A stretch of 51,642 bases of DNA from positions 1 to 51,642 of the forward strand of contig JAFDAJ010000007.1 of NCBI GenBank assembly GCA_019313915.1, written 5' to 3'. Under the pieces are notes generated by a model that had not been told where the DNA came from, did not search any database, and saw only the letters and a list, made by a program, of their open reading frames with translations. This document shows positions 24,192 through 45,897 of this stretch, one piece after another. Position 1 is the first letter of the stretch, and every line of letters begins with the position of its first letter. The position numbers were made by a program, and so were the translations under genes. Origin of the DNA: Deltaproteobacteria bacterium. Lineage in GTDB: Bacteria > Myxococcota_A > Polyangia > Polyangiales > Houyiibacteriaceae.

Positions 24192-24740
24192 ATGGCAGAC
24201 GAATCAAAAGAAAGAAAGGTGATCATTGCTCTCCTTCTGACATCGACGCTGCTGACGATGCTCGGCATCGCGGGGGTCCTCAGGGGCGCCTACGACCTGT
24301 CCTTGGCTCCCCTTCCCGAAGACATTCGCGAGTTGTACGAGCCGGAGGCCGAAGTGACCGACGCGGAGGTTCAGCTTTTCGAGGCTCAAGTGTCCAACCC
24401 CTATCGGCGACCCATGGCCGCTGCCAATGTGGTGGTTTCGGCGTTGGTGCTCATCGGTAGCTTCATGTTGAGCTGGCGCCGAAAGCTCGCGCTGTGGTGG
24501 ATCAAGCAGGCGGTGGCGGCCAAGTTGATTTGGATCACCGCCTATACCGTCTCGCTCGTCTCTCACGTCAAGTTGACGTTTGCGCCGTTGCCGCTCGAAC
24601 ATCCAGGCGGAGCGCTCCCCGAGGTCATCGGCGGCGTGATCCTCGTGAGCACGTTCAGCGGCGCGCTGCATGTCGCGGCCGCTTACCGAGCCACGCGACC
24701 CGACATCGGCCAGTTCATCGAATCCAACGCTAAAAGTTGA
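24192..24740 (+). CDS. Hypothetical membrane protein
   Basis: Several hydrophobic segments; divergent from the sensor kinase. Confidence 0.65.
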   Translation: MADESKERKVIIALLLTSTLLTMLGIAGVLRGAYDLSLAPLPEDIRELYEPEAEVTDAEVQLFEAQVSNPYRRPMAAANVVVSALVLIGSFMLSWRRKLALWWIKQAVAAKLIWITAYTVSLVSHVKLTFAPLPLEHPGGALPEVIGGVILVSTFSGALHVAAAYRATRPDIGQFIESNAKS

Positions 24741-25467
24741 TGCGGCGCATGATGGCGCGTGGCAGGGCTCGGATGACCGCCATGATGAGTCGCCACAGCG
24801 CCGGCGCATAAACGACTGGCGCGCCACGGTCCATGGCGCCCAGCACACGCCGTGCCACGGCGTCGGGCTCACCGGCGAACGGCGGCGGTTCGAGCCCGGC
24901 GGTCATGCTGGTCTTGACGAATCCAGGTTTGACGGTGACCACGCGCAGGCCTTCAGCATGGTGTTTGTGATCCAACCCTTCGAGATAGCGAGTGAGGCCC
25001 GCCTTGGCGGCACCGTAGATGATGACCGGTTTGCGGCCCCGTTCTCCCGCGACCGAGCTGAACACACACAAAGTGCCGCCGCCCTCTTCGAGGAGCGCCT
25101 TCTTCGCCGCCTCGCAGAACATGACGGTGTTGGAGAAATTGATTCGAACTAGTCTCTCGGCAAGCGCGGGGTCCGCTTCGAGCTCCTCTTGAGTGGCGAA
25201 CACGCCGGCGGTGACGACCACTGCGTCCAAACCTCCGAGCGCCTCTCGGGCAGCATCGATCGCAGAGGTAAACGCTTCGGGCTTCTCGAGGTCGCAAACC
25301 ACACCGCGCACAGGACCCGTTGCGCCTCGCACGCTCAGGTCAGCAGCACTGCGCTCGAGGTCGACGCTGTTTCGGCCAAGAAGGCAAATCGTGTCGCCAC
25401 GCTCCGCCGTCAATCGCGCAAGCGCACGCCCCATCCCCTTGGTTGCACCTAGAAACGCAACTCTCAT
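24730..25467 (-). CDS. SDR oxidoreductase, DprE2-like
   Basis: MRVAFLGATKGMGRALARL, VVVTAGVFATQEE, SSVAGERGRKPVIIYGAAKAGLTRYLEGL; adjacent to DprE1-like gene. Confidence 0.82.
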   Translation of the reverse strand: MRVAFLGATKGMGRALARLTAERGDTICLLGRNSVDLERSAADLSVRGATGPVRGVVCDLEKPEAFTSAIDAAREALGGLDAVVVTAGVFATQEELEADPALAERLVRINFSNTVMFCEAAKKALLEEGGGTLCVFSSVAGERGRKPVIIYGAAKAGLTRYLEGLDHKHHAEGLRVVTVKPGFVKTSMTAGLEPPPFAGEPDAVARRVLGAMDRGAPVVYAPALWRLIMAVIRALPRAIMRRINF

Positions 25468-25468
25468 G

Positions 25469-26797
25469 TTAGTCCCCTAGCAAGCGCACGGACTGCGCGC
25501 TTCGAAATCTGCGGTTCGGATCCCAGCGATCGCGAATCGCTTGAAACTCGTCGAGGCGTGGCCCCTCCATGGCTTCGAAATGCTCTCGCCGTGTGAATGA
25601 ATCTTTGGCGAGGTAAATACGGCCGCCCTCCTGGATCACCTGTTCGTTCAGGGCGTCGACGAGGTCTTGAGTGTCGTCCCGAACCGCGATGTCGAGCGCC
25701 AACGTGATCCCAGGCCGAGGGAAAGAAAGGATACCCTTGCTCTCTCGCCCAAAATCTTTGATGACGCACAAGAACGAAGCGCCGCCGCGGGCGGTGAGGA
25801 CGTCGAGCACGCGACGTGCCGAGGCCCGCCCTGCCTCGCGCGGCAACACGCATTGATACTGCGTAAACCCGCGTCGGCCGTACATGCGGTTCCAAGAACG
25901 GATTGCGTCGAGGGGATAGTAGAAGGACTCGTGGCTGACGATCCCGCTAGAGCGTCGGCGCCATTGCTTGCGATAGTACAGCTCGTTGAAAAGCCGGATG
26001 GTGAGCCCGCTCAACACCCAGGACGGCCAATCGAATCGGAGGCTTGGTTGGAAACCCGGCTTGGGCGCGCGGGGCGGAGCTTGGTCTGCCTCTGCCCATC
26101 GACCGGTCATGAGAATGCCGCGCCCCATGTTCTTGCCGCGCGCAAGGCAATCGATCCAACCCATGGTGTACGGCCACTCGGGCGCTGACTCCTCCAGCGC
26201 GTCCTGGAACTCATCAATGTCGTGAATGCGTCGACTCTCCTGACAGATCCACTGCGAAGGGATCCGGCGCATCCCGAACTCCACCTCGAGAATGTGCCCA
26301 GTGAGGCCCATTCCGCCGATCGTCGCACGGAAGAGGTCGGCGTGTCGTTCCGGTGAGCAATCGAGCACGCGTCCATCGGCAACCCGCATCTTGAGCGAGG
26401 TGACATGGTGACCGAAATTGCCATCCTTGTGTTGGTTCTTGCCGTGAACGTCTGCAGCAACCATGCCGCCAAGGGTAACGAACTTCGTGCCCGGGGAAAC
26501 GGGAGAGAAGTAGCCGCGAGGCATCAGAAGACGATTGAGCTCACCCAGCGTGAAGCCCGACTCGGCACGAAAGAGGCCGGAGTCCTCGTCGAAGCTCAGA
26601 ATGCGATCAGCGAACGTGGTGTTGAGGACGGTCGGCTCGTCATCCGGAGGCAGAGACGCGTCACCGTATGAGCGGCCGAGCCCCCGTGACAGATTGACAT
26701 CGGCGCTGATGCGCTCGAGATCCTCGCCCACGCGCTCCCGCCCTTGAGCCGAATGCCGGCCCCAACCCGAGAGCGTCGAAAGCGGTGGCTCACGCAT
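25469..26797 (-). CDS. FAD-linked oxidase, DprE1-like (decaprenylphosphoryl-ribose oxidase family)
   Basis: RGLGRSYGDASL, GKNQHKDGNFGHHVTSL, LSFPRPGITLALDIAV, GGRIYLAKDSFTRREHFEAM...DEFQAIRDRWDPNRRFRS. Confidence 0.86.
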   Translation of the reverse strand: MREPPLSTLSGWGRHSAQGRERVGEDLERISADVNLSRGLGRSYGDASLPPDDEPTVLNTTFADRILSFDEDSGLFRAESGFTLGELNRLLMPRGYFSPVSPGTKFVTLGGMVAADVHGKNQHKDGNFGHHVTSLKMRVADGRVLDCSPERHADLFRATIGGMGLTGHILEVEFGMRRIPSQWICQESRRIHDIDEFQDALEESAPEWPYTMGWIDCLARGKNMGRGILMTGRWAEADQAPPRAPKPGFQPSLRFDWPSWVLSGLTIRLFNELYYRKQWRRRSSGIVSHESFYYPLDAIRSWNRMYGRRGFTQYQCVLPREAGRASARRVLDVLTARGGASFLCVIKDFGRESKGILSFPRPGITLALDIAVRDDTQDLVDALNEQVIQEGGRIYLAKDSFTRREHFEAMEGPRLDEFQAIRDRWDPNRRFRSAQSVRLLGD

Positions 26798-26832: not shown

Positions 26833-28002
26833 CTAGCGCCCACGCTTAGGCATGAGCGCCTTACGAAGCTCATCAGCGCGATCGGTGCGCTCCCACGTGA
26901 ATGTCTTCTCGGTGCGGCCGAAATGCCCATAGGCTGCCGTCGGGGCGTAAATGGGGCGCAGGAGGTCCAGGGTGTCGACGATCGCCGCGGGGCGGAAATC
27001 AAACAGCTTGGACACCACCTTGCTGATCTTCTCGTCGGAGACGACGCCCGTGCCGAACGTCGTCACGTAGACGCCCATCGGCTTCGCGACGCCGATGGCA
27101 TAGGCCACCTGCACCTCGCAGCGTGACGCGACCTTGGCGGCCACGATGTTCTTGGCCACGTAGCGGGCGAAGTAGGCCGCGCTGCGGTCGACTTTGGAAG
27201 GATCCTTGCCACTGAAGGCGCCACCGCCGTGCCGGCCCATGCCGCCGTACGTGTCGACGATGATCTTGCGACCCGTCAGGCCGGCATCTCCGTACGGACC
27301 GCCAACGACGAAGCGTCCGGTCGGATTGATGTGAAACTTGGTCTTCTTGTCGATCATCTTCGCCGGAAGGGTCGGCAGGATGACCTCCTCGATGATCGCG
27401 TCCCGAAGAGCGCGCGGCTTGACGCTCTCCGCGTGCTGCGTCGAAACCACGATCGCATCAAACCGCCGCGGCTTGTCTTTCTCGTACTCGACGGTGACCT
27501 GCGTCTTGCCGTCCGGGCGAAGCCCCTCGATGATGTTCTTCTTGCGAACCTGCGTCAGCCGGCGCGCCAGCTTGTGGGACAGGTCGATCGGCATCGGCAT
27601 GAGCTGGCGTGTCTCGTTGACGGCGTAGCCAAACATGAGCCCCTGGTCGCCGGCCCCCTGCTCCTTCTTGGCGCTGGAGTCGACGCCCATGGCGATATCG
27701 GGCGACTGCTGCTCGACCGCGGCCAGAACACCGCAGGTGTAGGCGTCGAATCCCATCGCGGAGTCGGTGTATCCGATTTCCGTGATCGCTTCTCGGGCGA
27801 CCTTCGCGATCTCGATGACGGCCTTCGAGGTGACCTCTCCAGCACAGACGACAAAGCCGGTCTTGACCATGGTTTCGACCGCCACGCGCGACTTCGGGTC
27901 TTGCGCGAGGTACGCGTCCAGCAGCGAATCGCTGATCTTGTCGCAGATCTTGTCGGGGTGACCCTCGGTCACAGACTCGGAAGTAAACAGGTATTGGCTC
28001 AT
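26833..28002 (-). CDS. metK: S-adenosylmethionine synthetase
   Basis: [58 protein letters not shown]. Confidence 0.98.
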
Positions 28003-30219: not shown

Positions 30220-31830
30220 TCACTCGTGGGTGATGTGCGGAGGGGTGTCCCTCGAGATGCGGGTATCGCCTTGCCACTCCTCGCCCGCGTGCGGGTAGTC
30301 GAGATTGTAGTGCAACCCACGACTCTCTTTGCGCGCGCCTGCGCAACGGATGATCAGCTCTGCCACGTCCGCAATGTTTCGAAGCTCCAACATGTCGCGA
30401 TTGACCAAGTGCGCCCAGTAGTACTCGCGAATCTCCTCCTGCAGCATCGCGATGCGGCGTGACGCCCGGCGCAAGCGACGGTCGGTGCGAACGATCCCTA
30501 CATAGTTCCACATGAATCGACGTATCTCGTCCCAGTTCTGAGACACCACGACGGCTTCATCGCTCGCCACGGCCTCGCCGACATCCCAGTCGGGGACCTC
30601 CGTCAACTCGATCTCCGGCATCGTAGAGAGTGCCTCTTGCGCGGCGATCGCGGTCCGGTGGCCGTACACCAAACCTTCGAGGAGCGAGTTGGAGGCAAGG
30701 CGATTGGCGCCGTGGAGGCCCGTGCATGTCACCTCGCCGACAGCCCACAGCCCTGGAACCGTCGAACAGCCGTTGTCGTCGACCACGACGCCGCCGCACA
30801 TGTAGTGCGCGGCGGGGACGACCGGGATGGGGTCCTTCGTCATGTCGATGCCGAACTGAAGGCACCGTGCATGAATATTCGGAAACCTCTCGACTATGAA
30901 GGCCTCGGACTCGTGGGTCATGTCGAGGTAGACGCAATCGTCACCGCTGCGTTTCATCTCGTAGTCGATCGCGCGAGCAACGACATCGCGAGGAGCGAGG
31001 TCTTTCATCTCGTGATGCGATTGCATGAACGCCTCGCCGCTGCGCAGACGAAGGACGCCGCCCTCGCCTCGCAACGCCTCGCTAATCAGAAAGCTTTTGG
31101 CCTCGGGGTGGAACAGGCACGTCGGATGAAATTGAAAGAACTCCATGTTCGCCAGCTCGGCACCGGCGCGGTATGCCATCGCGACGCCGTCTCCGGTCGC
31201 AACGTCGGGATTCGACGTATAGAGGTACACCTTGCCTGCGCCTCCGGTGGCGAGGACCGTCGCGCGCGCGAGGTAGGTTTTCACCCTTCCTGACTCTTCA
31301 TCTAGGACATAGGCACCGACGACTCGGCGGGGCCCTCCGAACTTCGATGCCGCCACGAGATCGATCGCCATGTGGTCTTCCATGATCTCGATGTTGGGAG
31401 ACGCAGCTGCCGCTTGGAGGAGCACACGTTGTACTTCTTCGCCCGTGACGTCGCCTGCGTGAACGACGCGTCGGGCGCTGTGGCCACCCTCTCTAGTGAG
31501 ATCCAGCGACAGGTCTTCCTCGCTGCGGCTGAACTGAGCCCCGAGGTCCATGAGCTCCTTGATTCGCAAGGGACCGTCACGGACGACCATCTCGACGACC
31601 TCGCGATGCGACAGTCCGCCGCCGGTACCAATCGTGTCGTTGACGTGGGCCTCGAACGAATCGGCGGGATCGAGCACTGCGGCGATACCACCCTGAGCCC
31701 AGTTGGTCGCGGAGTCCGCGCTCCCGCGCTTGGTGACCATCATCACCCGGCCGTGGCGTGCTGCTTCGAGCGCGAAGCTCAACCCAGCTACCCCGCTACC
31801 CAACACTAGGCAGTCGCATTCCGCTCGCAT
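30220..31830 (-). CDS. nadB: L-aspartate oxidase
   Basis: CLVLGSGVAGLSFALEAA, TNWAQGGIAAVLDPADSFE, HPTCLFHPEAKSFLISEALRGEGG, GLHGANRLASNSLLEGLVYG. Confidence 0.97.
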   Translation of the reverse strand: MRAECDCLVLGSGVAGLSFALEAARHGRVMMVTKRGSADSATNWAQGGIAAVLDPADSFEAHVNDTIGTGGGLSHREVVEMVVRDGPLRIKELMDLGAQFSRSEEDLSLDLTREGGHSARRVVHAGDVTGEEVQRVLLQAAAASPNIEIMEDHMAIDLVAASKFGGPRRVVGAYVLDEESGRVKTYLARATVLATGGAGKVYLYTSNPDVATGDGVAMAYRAGAELANMEFFQFHPTCLFHPEAKSFLISEALRGEGGVLRLRSGEAFMQSHHEMKDLAPRDVVARAIDYEMKRSGDDCVYLDMTHESEAFIVERFPNIHARCLQFGIDMTKDPIPVVPAAHYMCGGVVVDDNGCSTVPGLWAVGEVTCTGLHGANRLASNSLLEGLVYGHRTAIAAQEALSTMPEIELTEVPDWDVGEAVASDEAVVVSQNWDEIRRFMWNYVGIVRTDRRLRRASRRIAMLQEEIREYYWAHLVNRDMLELRNIADVAELIIRCAGARKESRGLHYNLDYPHAGEEWQGDTRISRDTPPHITHE

Positions 31831-31886: not shown

Positions 31887-32837
31887 CTACAGCTCGAGCT
31901 CGCGAGCCGAACGCAGGGCGGAGGGCGGCGCAAAGTAGTGGAAATAGCTCACCTGGTAGCCGCCCAGCGCATGCACCACGTGATTCCCAAGCTCGTACCC
32001 GGCCACGAGCAGCTCCGGCTCAGACTCGGGAACGAAGGTAACCACGTCGAACGTCAGCGGTCGAAAGAGCTTGATGATCGAATCGACCAAGCCGCCGAGA
32101 TGGCCCCGGAAATCGTAGTTGGTCTCGAAGCTGACGTAGCTCCCAGTCGCCTCGGGAGTGACGTGAAGGGCGTAGTACTCCTCGCCTTTCACCGCATTGA
32201 GGGAATATCCGGCCGGGTTGAAGACATGTTCAGAAGTGGTGAACCCAGGAAGGATGGCATCGATGCCCGATGAAATGGCAATCGATGTACCGCTAGAAAC
32301 GTGACTCGAGATGAATCGCTGGGCGACGTCTTCGTCGATCTCATGCATGAGCACTTCGAGCGTCGGGTCGTTCGTCTCGGGCGTATACGGACGGGTCGTA
32401 TGGAACATCTGAACGTAGCGCCCATGCTCGTCGCCGAAGCAAAGCGCTCGCCCGGGGAGCATCGTTTGGAGACGACGAGCATCTTCGTGGAAGCTCGTCG
32501 ATTGGTGCTCAGGGAAGTGCTCGCTCTTGCGCTCGTACACCAGGAAGGCGATCGATTCTGCTGGAATCGATCGCAGGATCTGGGGGACGGCGTCGACCAG
32601 AGTCGTCTGACCGCAGGTGATCAGGACAAACCAATCGTCGAAGACGAACAGGCTCGACTCGGACAAGATGTACGCGTCACAATGCTCGGTTCGGAGGACC
32701 GAGACAACCTTGGCCCCGGCGGACTCGACGATGCCACGCCACACGTCGTCGCCCAGCGAGCGCAAGGGCGGGAAGTCCGGAGTCACGACTGCCTCCAGCT
32801 TCTTTTCAGGGCCTTCGAAAAAACTCGACGTCCTCAT
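31887..32837 (-). CDS. Eukaryotic-type (class II) S-adenosylmethionine decarboxylase, pyruvoyl proenzyme
   Basis: SFFEGPEKKLE, AYILSESSLFV (cleavage Ser), LITCGQTTLVDAV, NPAGYSLNAVKGEEYYALHVTPEATGSYVSFETN; start inferred at 32837. Confidence 0.92.
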   Translation of the reverse strand: MRTSSFFEGPEKKLEAVVTPDFPPLRSLGDDVWRGIVESAGAKVVSVLRTEHCDAYILSESSLFVFDDWFVLITCGQTTLVDAVPQILRSIPAESIAFLVYERKSEHFPEHQSTSFHEDARRLQTMLPGRALCFGDEHGRYVQMFHTTRPYTPETNDPTLEVLMHEIDEDVAQRFISSHVSSGTSIAISSGIDAILPGFTTSEHVFNPAGYSLNAVKGEEYYALHVTPEATGSYVSFETNYDFRGHLGGLVDSIIKLFRPLTFDVVTFVPESEPELLVAGYELGNHVVHALGGYQVSYFHYFAPPSALRSARELEL

Positions 32838-32929
32838 CGAAGGGCCCATCATGCGCAGAAGCGCGACGAACGCAAGCGTGGGGGGCGCATTTTGGCGTGA
32901 CTCCGCACCCGGGGATACACTTCTCCGCG

Positions 32930-33580
32930 ATGGTTTCGCGGTTGTTAGTGGTAGTAGGCATAGCGGGCCTAATCGTGGGCACGGCGGCGCCTGCTCGCGC
33001 GGACATCTATCGCTGCAAGCGCGCCGACGGAACACAGCACTACACGAATATCAGAGAGCCCGGCCGCCGGTGCCAGCTCGTCGTGAGGAGCAGCAAGAGG
33101 TCGAAACCGCGAGCCAGCGCCAAGAAGACGGGCTCGGGAACGAAGTCGACCAGAGGCAACCGATCCAGGGACCCGGCTCGGTACAGTCGCTACAACAGCC
33201 TGATCGGGGAAGCTGCAAGACTCTACCAGCTCCCCGAGTCGTTCATTCGAGCTGTGATGCGCGTCGAGAGCGACTTCAATCCTACCGTGGTCAGCCGAGC
33301 GGGCGCGATGGGCCTGATGCAACTCATGCCGAAGACGGCGCGGTCGATGGGCGTGGCGGACCCTTTCGACGCGCGCCAGAACATCCACGGAGGCGCACGC
33401 TATCTCCGCATTCTGGCAAACCACTTCAAGGGCGATCTGGTGCTGACGGTCGCCGCGTATAACGCGGGCCAGGGCGCGGTCCAAAGGTACAATGGCATCC
33501 CGCCGTACAAGGAGACGCAGCGCTATGTACGCCGCGTGCTCAAGCACTACTATGCCTACCGTGGCGAGAGCACACCTTAG
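32930..33580 (+). CDS. Lytic transglycosylase (SLT) with N-terminal DUF4124-like segment
   Basis: ADIYRCKRADGTQHYTNIREPGRRC; IRAVMRVESDFNPTVVSRAGAMGLMQLMPKTARSMGV; AAYNAGQGAVQRYNGIPPYKETQRYV. Confidence 0.92.
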   Translation: MVSRLLVVVGIAGLIVGTAAPARADIYRCKRADGTQHYTNIREPGRRCQLVVRSSKRSKPRASAKKTGSGTKSTRGNRSRDPARYSRYNSLIGEAARLYQLPESFIRAVMRVESDFNPTVVSRAGAMGLMQLMPKTARSMGVADPFDARQNIHGGARYLRILANHFKGDLVLTVAAYNAGQGAVQRYNGIPPYKETQRYVRRVLKHYYAYRGESTP

Positions 33581-43411: not shown

Positions 43412-44902
43412 ATGCCCGGCTCGGCTACGTCAGGTCTGTCGTTTCAACCACCACTGATTTTCGAGCAGGGCTCGCCCAACCGCCATGGGGCTTCGCTCGC
43501 GCCCGACGATCTACCCGAAGTCGATGCCAAGAGCACGTTCGGTGACATGGCGCGAGAGCTCCCGCCCCTCCTTCCGGAGGTCTCCGAGCCCGACGCGGTT
43601 CGCCACTACGTTCGCCTGAGCCAACAGAACTTCGCGATCGACACGGGGATGTACCCGCTTGGGTCTTGCACGATGAAGTACAACCCCAAGGTCAACGAGT
43701 GGGCGGCGCGCTTGGCTGGGTTCACAGACCTTCACCCCTACATGCCGGACCAGCTCGTTCAAGGCGCCCTCGAGCTGATGTGGCGCCTGGAACGCGGGCT
43801 CGCCGAGGTGTGCGGCATGGATCGCGTCTCGTTGCACCCGGCAGCCGGCGCGCAGGGCGAGCTTGCCGGACTGATGATGATCCGCGCGTATCACCAAGCG
43901 CACGGGCGGGACCCGAAGAAGGTGCTGATCCCTGACACCGCACACGGAACCAATCCTGCATCGTGTGCGCTCAACGGTCTACAGGCCGTTGCCTTCCCCG
44001 TAGGCGAGGACGGCATCGTCACCACCGAGACCCTGGCGCCTTTCGTCGACGACGACGTGGCCGCTGTGATGGCGACCAACCCGAACACCGTCGGCCTCTT
44101 CGAAACTCACATGCCCGCGATCGCCGAGCTCATTCATAGCAAAGGCGGCCTCGTCTATGGCGATGGCGCCAACCTCAACGCCCTGATGGGCAAGGCCCGA
44201 CCGGGCGACCTCGGCATCGACGTGATGCAGTTCAACCTGCACAAGACATTTACCACCCCGCACGGCGGTGGCGGCCCCGGCTGCGGCCCCGTCGGGTACA
44301 AGTCGCTCCTCGATCCTTACGCGCCAGTCCCCGTCGTCGAAGAGCGGGATGGGCGCTTCATCCTCGACTACGACAGCCGTCAAGCGTCGGTCGGCAGGCT
44401 CCGGTCGTTTCAGGGCAACTTCGGGATCATGGTGCGCGCCTATGCATACCTCCGCGAGATGGGCGCCGGAGGGCTCAAACGGGCCACTGAGCTCGCGGTA
44501 CTCAACGCGAACTACCTCCGAGTCTGCCTCGGCGAGACCTGGCACGTTGCCTACGACTCGGTCTGCATGCACGAAGTGGTGATCAGCGATCGCCACCTCA
44601 AGCAGTCGGGCGTCACCACGATGGACGTCGCCAAGCGACTCATGGACTACGGGTTTCACCCGCCGACGGTGTACTTCCCGCTGGTCGTGAAGGGCGCGAT
44701 GCTGATAGAGCCGACCGAAACCGAGAGTCTTCAAACCCTCGACGAGTTCGTGGGCGTCATGAAGACGATAAGCGACGAGGCGGCGGCGAATCCAGACTTC
44801 GTCAAAGCGGCGCCGCAGTCTACGCGGTTGCGTCGGCTGGACGAGACTCGGGCTGCTCGGAAGCCTGTGCTGCGTTGGACAGCTCCCGAGACACCGCTCT
44901 AA
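43412..44902 (+). CDS. gcvPB: Glycine dehydrogenase (decarboxylating) subunit 2
   Basis: GMYPLGSCTMKYNPKVNEW, HPAAGAQGELAGLMMIRAYH, PDTAHGTNPASCALNGLQAV, QFNLHKTFTTPHGGGGPGCGPVG. Confidence 0.96.
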   Translation: MPGSATSGLSFQPPLIFEQGSPNRHGASLAPDDLPEVDAKSTFGDMARELPPLLPEVSEPDAVRHYVRLSQQNFAIDTGMYPLGSCTMKYNPKVNEWAARLAGFTDLHPYMPDQLVQGALELMWRLERGLAEVCGMDRVSLHPAAGAQGELAGLMMIRAYHQAHGRDPKKVLIPDTAHGTNPASCALNGLQAVAFPVGEDGIVTTETLAPFVDDDVAAVMATNPNTVGLFETHMPAIAELIHSKGGLVYGDGANLNALMGKARPGDLGIDVMQFNLHKTFTTPHGGGGPGCGPVGYKSLLDPYAPVPVVEERDGRFILDYDSRQASVGRLRSFQGNFGIMVRAYAYLREMGAGGLKRATELAVLNANYLRVCLGETWHVAYDSVCMHEVVISDRHLKQSGVTTMDVAKRLMDYGFHPPTVYFPLVVKGAMLIEPTETESLQTLDEFVGVMKTISDEAAANPDFVKAAPQSTRLRRLDETRAARKPVLRWTAPETPL

Positions 44903-45897
44903 CCATCGTCTGCTTCTGGTGAAACGGTAAGAACGCGGCCTTGAATCCGCTGACGATGATGCGATTGATGTCGTCGCGATCCAAACCCATCTGCGTGTGG
45001 CAAAGCCAGAGCTCGCGTGACACCGTCGTGTCAGCGATCAGCCGGTTGTCGGTGTTGACGGTCACCCGCAACCCGAGGTCGTGGTAAAGCTTGAGGGGGT
45101 GGGCCCGAAGCTCCCGTACGGCTCCTGTCTGGACGTTCGACGAGGGGCAGCATTCGAGCGCGATGCGATGGTCGTTGACGTAGTGCAGCAAATCACCGTC
45201 TTCGCGTAGACGGCAACCGTGGCCGATGCGGTGCGCACCGCACACGTGGATCGCCTGGTGAATCGAAGCGGGTCCGTAGGCCTCTCCGGCGTGGATCGTG
45301 ACCGCGAGGTTGTTGTCGCGGACGAGCTTGAACGCGCGAAGGTGATGCTTGGCCGGATGATCGTACTCGGCGCCAGCTAGGTCGAACGCGACGACGCCGC
45401 GGTTCTTGTAGGCCACCGCCAGCTGCGCCATCTCGAACGACGATTCAGGCGAGATGTTCCGAATGCCGCAGAATGCCGCAGACTATGGCGTTGCCAACGA
45501 CTCCATAGTCTTTTTGCGCGTCCCAAAGACCTGCGAGTACGGCCTCGACGACGGTCGTGAGCCGGAGACCGCCGCGCGTATGGAGCATGGGCGAGTACCG
45601 CACCTCCATGTAGCGGACGTTCTCGGCGGCCGCGTCCTCACTGAGCTCGTGCGCAACCCGGTAAAGCGCTTCGGCGGTCTGCAAGACCTTGAGCGTCGTA
45701 TCGACGAGCGACCCGGCTTTCTCCCCACAGTGGAGCGCCTTGCGGAGACCCTCGGGCGTGTCCGCGGGCAGCTGGACGCCCTGCTCTTCGGCGAGCTCGA
45801 GCATCGTAGACAATCGCAGCGAACCATCTAGATGAACGTGAAGGTCCGTCTTGGGGAGTCGTTGGATGTCGGAGAGTGTTAGCTCCATCCCTGCCAT
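44820..45897 (-). pseudogene. add: Adenosine deaminase family gene interrupted by a frameshift (10-bp tandem duplication at 45461-45480)
   Basis: N-part LPKTDLHVHLDGSLR...VVGNAIVCGI then shift; C-part FDLAGAEYDHPAKHH...IHAGEAYGPASIHQAIHVCGAHRIGHGCRL; removing one 10-bp copy restores GIRNISPESSFEMAQLAVAYKN. Confidence 0.9.
45461..45480. repeat. Exact 10-bp tandem duplication GAATGCCGCA x2
   Basis: gaatgccgca gaatgccgca gactatgg, within the adenosine deaminase gene. Confidence 0.98.

Follow-up and report, generated by a model that had tools for sequence, protein, structure and literature searches.

A eukaryotic-type S-adenosylmethionine decarboxylase that very likely serves spermidine synthesis in place of class 1 SpeD in a family of Myxococcota

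What does a gene for an S-adenosylmethionine (AdoMet) decarboxylase of the eukaryotic type do in a bacterial chromosome, and where does it come from? The question is raised by a gene at positions 31887..32837 (minus strand) of the window, by which we mean the whole stretch of 51,642 nucleotides that was analysed. The open reading frame runs from an ATG at 32837 to the stop at 31887 and encodes the proenzyme of a class 2 AdoMet decarboxylase of 316 amino acids. An upstream GTG opens a longer mechanical reading frame. We place the start at the ATG, since the relatives begin with MxTxSFFEGPEKK, which fits that codon. An Rfam search of the window gave no match to an RNA regulator.

The initial annotation had described the product as a eukaryotic-type AdoMet decarboxylase in a bacterial chromosome and had proposed a comparison with PF01536. 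The assignment was confirmed by this profile, by the match to human AMD1 and by the fold. PF01536 matches with 219 bits (E=1.2e-64; curated cut-off 22.2 bits) over profile positions 2-342 of 343, and the sequence match to human AMD1 has an E-value of 1.7e-36. An AlphaFold2 model for which 59 bacterial relatives were used (mean pLDDT 92.8, pTM 0.91) displays the fused double-domain alpha-beta-beta-alpha fold. Its best structural matches are the human AMD1 proenzymes 1msv and 1jl0 at full length (TM 0.85-0.88, E=2e-29, 314-325 columns), followed by the enzymes of T. brucei and potato and then by the single-domain class 1 enzyme of Thermotoga maritima. With 165.2 bits the protein does not pass the cut-off of the AdoMetDC equivalog TIGR00535 (233.15), which is an annotation threshold and not a defining property of class 2. 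This shortfall is to be expected, since the protein belongs to a divergent branch.

The individual residues were examined in an alignment of the window protein with the human, potato and T. brucei enzymes (sequences of the PDB chains) and 88 bacterial relatives. All the positions that had been listed from the sequence before, i.e. (in human numbering) Glu8, Glu11, Glu67/Ser68, Cys82, Ser229, His243 and the putrescine-site residues, are kept. The predicted self-cleavage site Glu60-Ser61 (human Glu67-Ser68) lies at 32655..32660 on the minus strand, like all residues given here; it aligns with that of the three eukaryotic enzymes and is invariant across 60 bacterial proteins. Alignment with the eukaryotes and with the 60 bacterial proteins likewise identifies the catalytic acid Cys75 (human Cys82; 32613..32615) and the processing residues Ser212 (human Ser229; 32202..32204) and His225 (human His243; 32163..32165). 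The AdoMet contacts Phe7, Leu65, Glu67, Phe223 and Glu247 (Glu229 in the window protein) are kept, too. Judging from the conserved residues and the fold, the proenzyme would cut itself between Glu60 and Ser61, and Ser61 would be converted to the pyruvoyl group.

At the putrescine site, Glu15, Asp157/Thr159/Glu161 (human Asp174/Thr176/Glu178; 32355..32369), Glu238 (human Glu256) and Phe285 are kept, and the human positions Lys80, Phe111, Ser113 and Leu13 are replaced. The position of Lys80 had been read as isoleucine, and this is correct (Ile73; 32619..32621). It is not a peculiarity of the window protein, since all sampled bacterial class 2 sequences have Ile, Leu or Met there and T. brucei has Ile. 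At position 13, where the human enzyme has Leu and the enzymes of potato and T. brucei have Arg, the window protein possesses Lys13 (32799..32801), which is invariant in the 60-protein bacterial alignment and present in all but two of the sampled bacterial sequences. Both Ile80 and Lys13 mark the bacterial class 2 group as a whole; T. brucei combines Ile80 with Arg13. Putrescine stimulates processing and activity of the human enzyme and stimulates the T. brucei enzyme approximately 10-fold, and the plant enzyme does not require it (PMC5201418). The basic residue at position 13 may act as a stand-in for the lost charge. An altered putrescine regulation, as suggested by the initial annotation, is plausible from the sequence, and because of the loss of Lys80 and the basic residue at position 13 we tentatively expect a putrescine dependence weaker than that of the human enzyme. 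The proline in FEGPEK, a typical feature of fungal and protist enzymes that those of animals and plants lack (PMC5201418), is present in the window protein; most Bdellovibrionota have a serine there.

The polyamine gene set of the host genome (4.41 Mb, 448 contigs, completeness 100) is of special interest for the function of the gene. The initial annotation had recommended a search for speE, and one canonical speE was found on another contig (TIGR00417, 289 bits, cut-off 249.55). Its product, with polyamine aminopropyltransferases and spermidine synthases as best PDB matches, is the only PF01564 protein of the genome, a soluble SpeE and not a fusion. Other contigs also carry the biosynthetic arginine decarboxylase SpeA (TIGR01273, 756 bits, cut-off 624) and a member of the agmatine deiminase family, matched by PF04371 with 338 bits but below the NCBIfam cut-off for agmatine deiminase. 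The second PF02784 match of the genome is LysA. Profile searches of the host genome detected neither a class 1 SpeD, nor any second SpeD beside the class 2 gene, nor an agmatinase-family protein. Since class 1 SpeD is absent, and SpeA, the agmatine-deiminase-family protein and SpeE are present, the most likely role of the gene is to provide decarboxylated AdoMet for spermidine. We therefore consider it very likely that it encodes a functional class 2 AdoMet decarboxylase, which substitutes for class 1 SpeD in the host family and feeds spermidine synthesis. As the gene set suggests, the enzyme would decarboxylate AdoMet and SpeE would use the product to convert putrescine to spermidine. The putrescine would probably derive from arginine via SpeA and the agmatine deiminase route, for which genes of the first two steps are present. 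Two observations stand against a role in spermidine synthesis: speE does not form an operon with the class 2 gene but is located on another contig, and four of the 34 genomes of the family (G004, G009, G023 and G031) possess SpeE without a detectable class 2 or class 1 gene, which could reflect incomplete assemblies or a true break in the pairing.

It might be argued that the window protein is a class 2 homologue with a changed substrate, an ornithine or arginine decarboxylase, as substrate changes are widespread among class 1 SpeD homologues (PMC10407285). However, a neofunctionalised SpeD is marked by a genome that lacks SpeE or has a second SpeD (PMC10407285), and neither mark is present here. 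A canonical SpeE occurs without any other SpeD and the canonical SpeA already makes agmatine, which renders such a change highly improbable; the conserved AdoMet contacts and the relatives that adjoin speE also speak against it. Very unlikely, too, is the production of decarboxylated AdoMet for a purpose other than spermidine. For this there is reportedly a published precedent, as Li et al. are said to have proposed in 2019 a non-spermidine role for AdoMetDCs in genomes with only a transporter-spermidine synthase fusion, and within the host family the genus g5 (G022, G030) lacks a canonical SpeE and possesses, at the corresponding locus, a divergent class 2 gene. The sole PF01564 protein of the host genome, however, is the canonical soluble SpeE.

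The divergent genes of the family deserve attention in their own right. Three of them, located beside nadB (L095:1486-2343 (+), L096:1486-2349 (+) and L094:1336-2322 (-)), keep the cleavage site, Cys82, Ser229 and His243 and have lost putrescine-site residues, with Asp174 replaced by Phe, Ser or Gly and Glu178 by Gln or Arg. A canonical SpeE is absent from the two g5 genomes (L095, L096), where just distant matches in long membrane-protein fusions were found, one of them matching the model for a fused MFS/spermidine synthase. In G027, the genome of L094, the sole form of SpeE has 531 amino acids with a membrane-like N-terminal part. These three genes are candidates for a change of role, or may be decaying, which does not apply to the window gene.

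In regard to the genomic neighbourhood, it had been stated from the sequence that no other polyamine gene is nearby. This holds for speD, speE and speA, but metK (26833..28002, minus strand; TIGR01034, 590 bits), encoding the methionine adenosyltransferase that forms the substrate AdoMet, lies approximately 3.9 kb downstream on the same strand. Between them, 56 bp downstream of the class 2 gene, follows nadB for L-aspartate oxidase (30220..31830, minus strand; TIGR00551, 603.7 bits), and the synteny of the class 2 gene with nadB and metK is fixed across the genus. The conserved upstream neighbour, recognised by profile annotation and synteny, is a divergently oriented lytic transglycosylase-like gene from outside the pathway (32897..33580, plus strand). 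DprE1-like and DprE2-like genes adjoin metK (24733-26797, minus strand), both under the NCBIfam cut-offs. Elsewhere in the window (44820-45897, minus strand) an adenosine deaminase is split into two open reading frames in different frames (PF00962 positions 1-136 and 146-327), a frameshift that is genuine or stems from the assembly.

The class 2 gene is present in 17 of the 19 genomes of the host genus and in most of the host family. Class 1 SpeD was found in none of the 34 genomes of this family, compared to 37 of the 63 other searched genomes of the order; class 2 replaces class 1 SpeD throughout the host family. The nearest relatives are Myxococcota genes with 65-84% identity and the same synteny, and the comparison with the nearest one (L003) indicates purifying selection (dN 0.08, dS 0.60-0.74, dN/dS approximately 0.11-0.14). 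Within the phylum as a whole, 24 of 373 genomes carry a class 2 gene; outside the host family, with five of these genomes, it is rare. Two further phyla have it, Elusimicrobiota with 3 of 151 genomes and Bdellovibrionota with 45 of 189. At nearly all sampled loci of these two phyla it is located directly upstream of a speE-like gene, and this arrangement speaks for a part in spermidine synthesis throughout the bacterial group. The initial annotation had considered a horizontal gain. An isolated gain by the host organism does not agree with the retention of the gene in the whole genus, most of the family and two other phyla. Rather than a recent acquisition, the gene is a long-standing, conserved trait of the family; the ancestor of the genus would already have carried it, and probably that of the family as well.

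The Elusimicrobia MAG JACRNU01 contains two class 2 genes on two contigs (L044 and L045), each approximately 43% identical to the window protein, which represent a duplicate or a mixed bin. L119 (G743) and L126 (G586) were obtained from the search of Bdellovibrionota and yet group with Elusimicrobiota in the tree, by transfer between the phyla or misassigned contigs. L022:5998-6942 (+), from a MAG labelled as Planctomycetota, is placed beside Sandaracinaceae sequences and is possibly a mislabelled bin or a transfer.

Where the bacterial group itself comes from was addressed by two unrooted maximum-likelihood trees with only four eukaryotic rows. The letters for potato and T. brucei were taken from PDB chains, and the yeast row is an unverified sequence that only serves to support the eukaryotic group. 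The four eukaryotic rows form one group apart from all bacteria (support 99/98 and 99/99 in the two trees). The phylogeny thus separates the bacterial from the four eukaryotic sequences, but with four eukaryotic rows it does not give the direction of donation. The window gene is part of a bacterial class 2 group together with Bdellovibrionota and Elusimicrobiota, separate from the sampled eukaryotic enzymes. If the root is set between eukaryotes and bacteria, the myxobacterial and Elusimicrobiota clades lie inside the Bdellovibrionota radiation (97/83), a placement that points to spread between bacteria; the rejection of a single Bdellovibrionota clade is weak (AU test, p=0.03). Unrooted and with four eukaryotic rows, the trees favour such spread.

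We give next to no credence to a recent direct acquisition from a eukaryote by the host lineage or to eukaryotic contamination. The protein family is of the eukaryotic type, and joining the eukaryotes to the myxobacterial clade stays above rejection in the AU test (p=0.094). However, the identity to the four eukaryotic enzymes is only 28-33%, far from that of the syntenic Myxococcota genes, the eukaryotic rows stand apart in the tree, and the composition (61-66% GC) is like that of the rest of the window. Recent eukaryotic donation is therefore disfavoured by identity and tree, and contamination is ruled out by the composition, the synteny and the occurrence throughout the genus, as the initial annotation had argued from local GC and flanks. 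A mobile element origin was discarded, too, since the phage and plasmid collections contained no match to the class 2 gene; a published study reports no class 2 enzymes from viruses (PMC9992855). As far as PMC10407285 reports Li et al. 2019, class 2 enzymes were already described in bacteria in 2019 and the bacterial genes are held to derive from eukaryotes. The reverse, i.e. an origin of the fused class 2 enzyme in bacteria on the side of Bdellovibrionota and Myxococcota and its transfer to an early eukaryote, seems rather doubtful to us; bearing on it are the number of Bdellovibrionota genomes with the gene, their deep radiation and the mostly paired speE.

Taken alone, the window gene most likely encodes a functional polyamine enzyme of a type that is unusual but already published, and the interest lies beyond the single gene in the breadth and fixation of class 2 in bacteria. 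Class 2, which is regarded as an invention of eukaryotes, replaces the bacterial enzyme in a whole family of Myxococcota, where it is fixed and syntenic, and is common in Bdellovibrionota. Source and direction of the cross-domain transfer thereby become testable with far more bacterial sequences, and the uniform Lys13/Ile80 signature offers a direct test of how putrescine control arose.

Of the known systems, the class 1a and 1b SpeD proteins (T. maritima 1vr7/1tlu) catalyze the same reaction. Their single-domain fold (1vr7) resembles only part of the window protein (TM 0.69 on the target), they comprise approximately 120 instead of 316 amino acids, and a profile search with the class 1 family PF02675 gave no match to the window protein even at E=1. 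With the eukaryotic class 2 enzymes (human 1msv/1jl0, potato 1mhm, T. brucei 5tvf) the window protein has in common the two-half fold over the whole length, the cleavage site, the catalytic and AdoMet-contact residues and Glu15, Asp174, Thr176, Glu178 and Glu256, at the low identity given above. It is shorter than the human enzyme (316 vs. 334 amino acids), from which it differs by Lys80 to Ile, Leu13 to Lys, Ser113 to Glu and Phe111 to Val, and it lacks the long N-terminal extension of the trypanosomatids but shares the proline in FEGPEK with enzymes of protists and fungi. It belongs to the same class as the bacterial class 2 AdoMetDCs of Li et al. (2019, Biochem J), as these are cited in PMC10407285.
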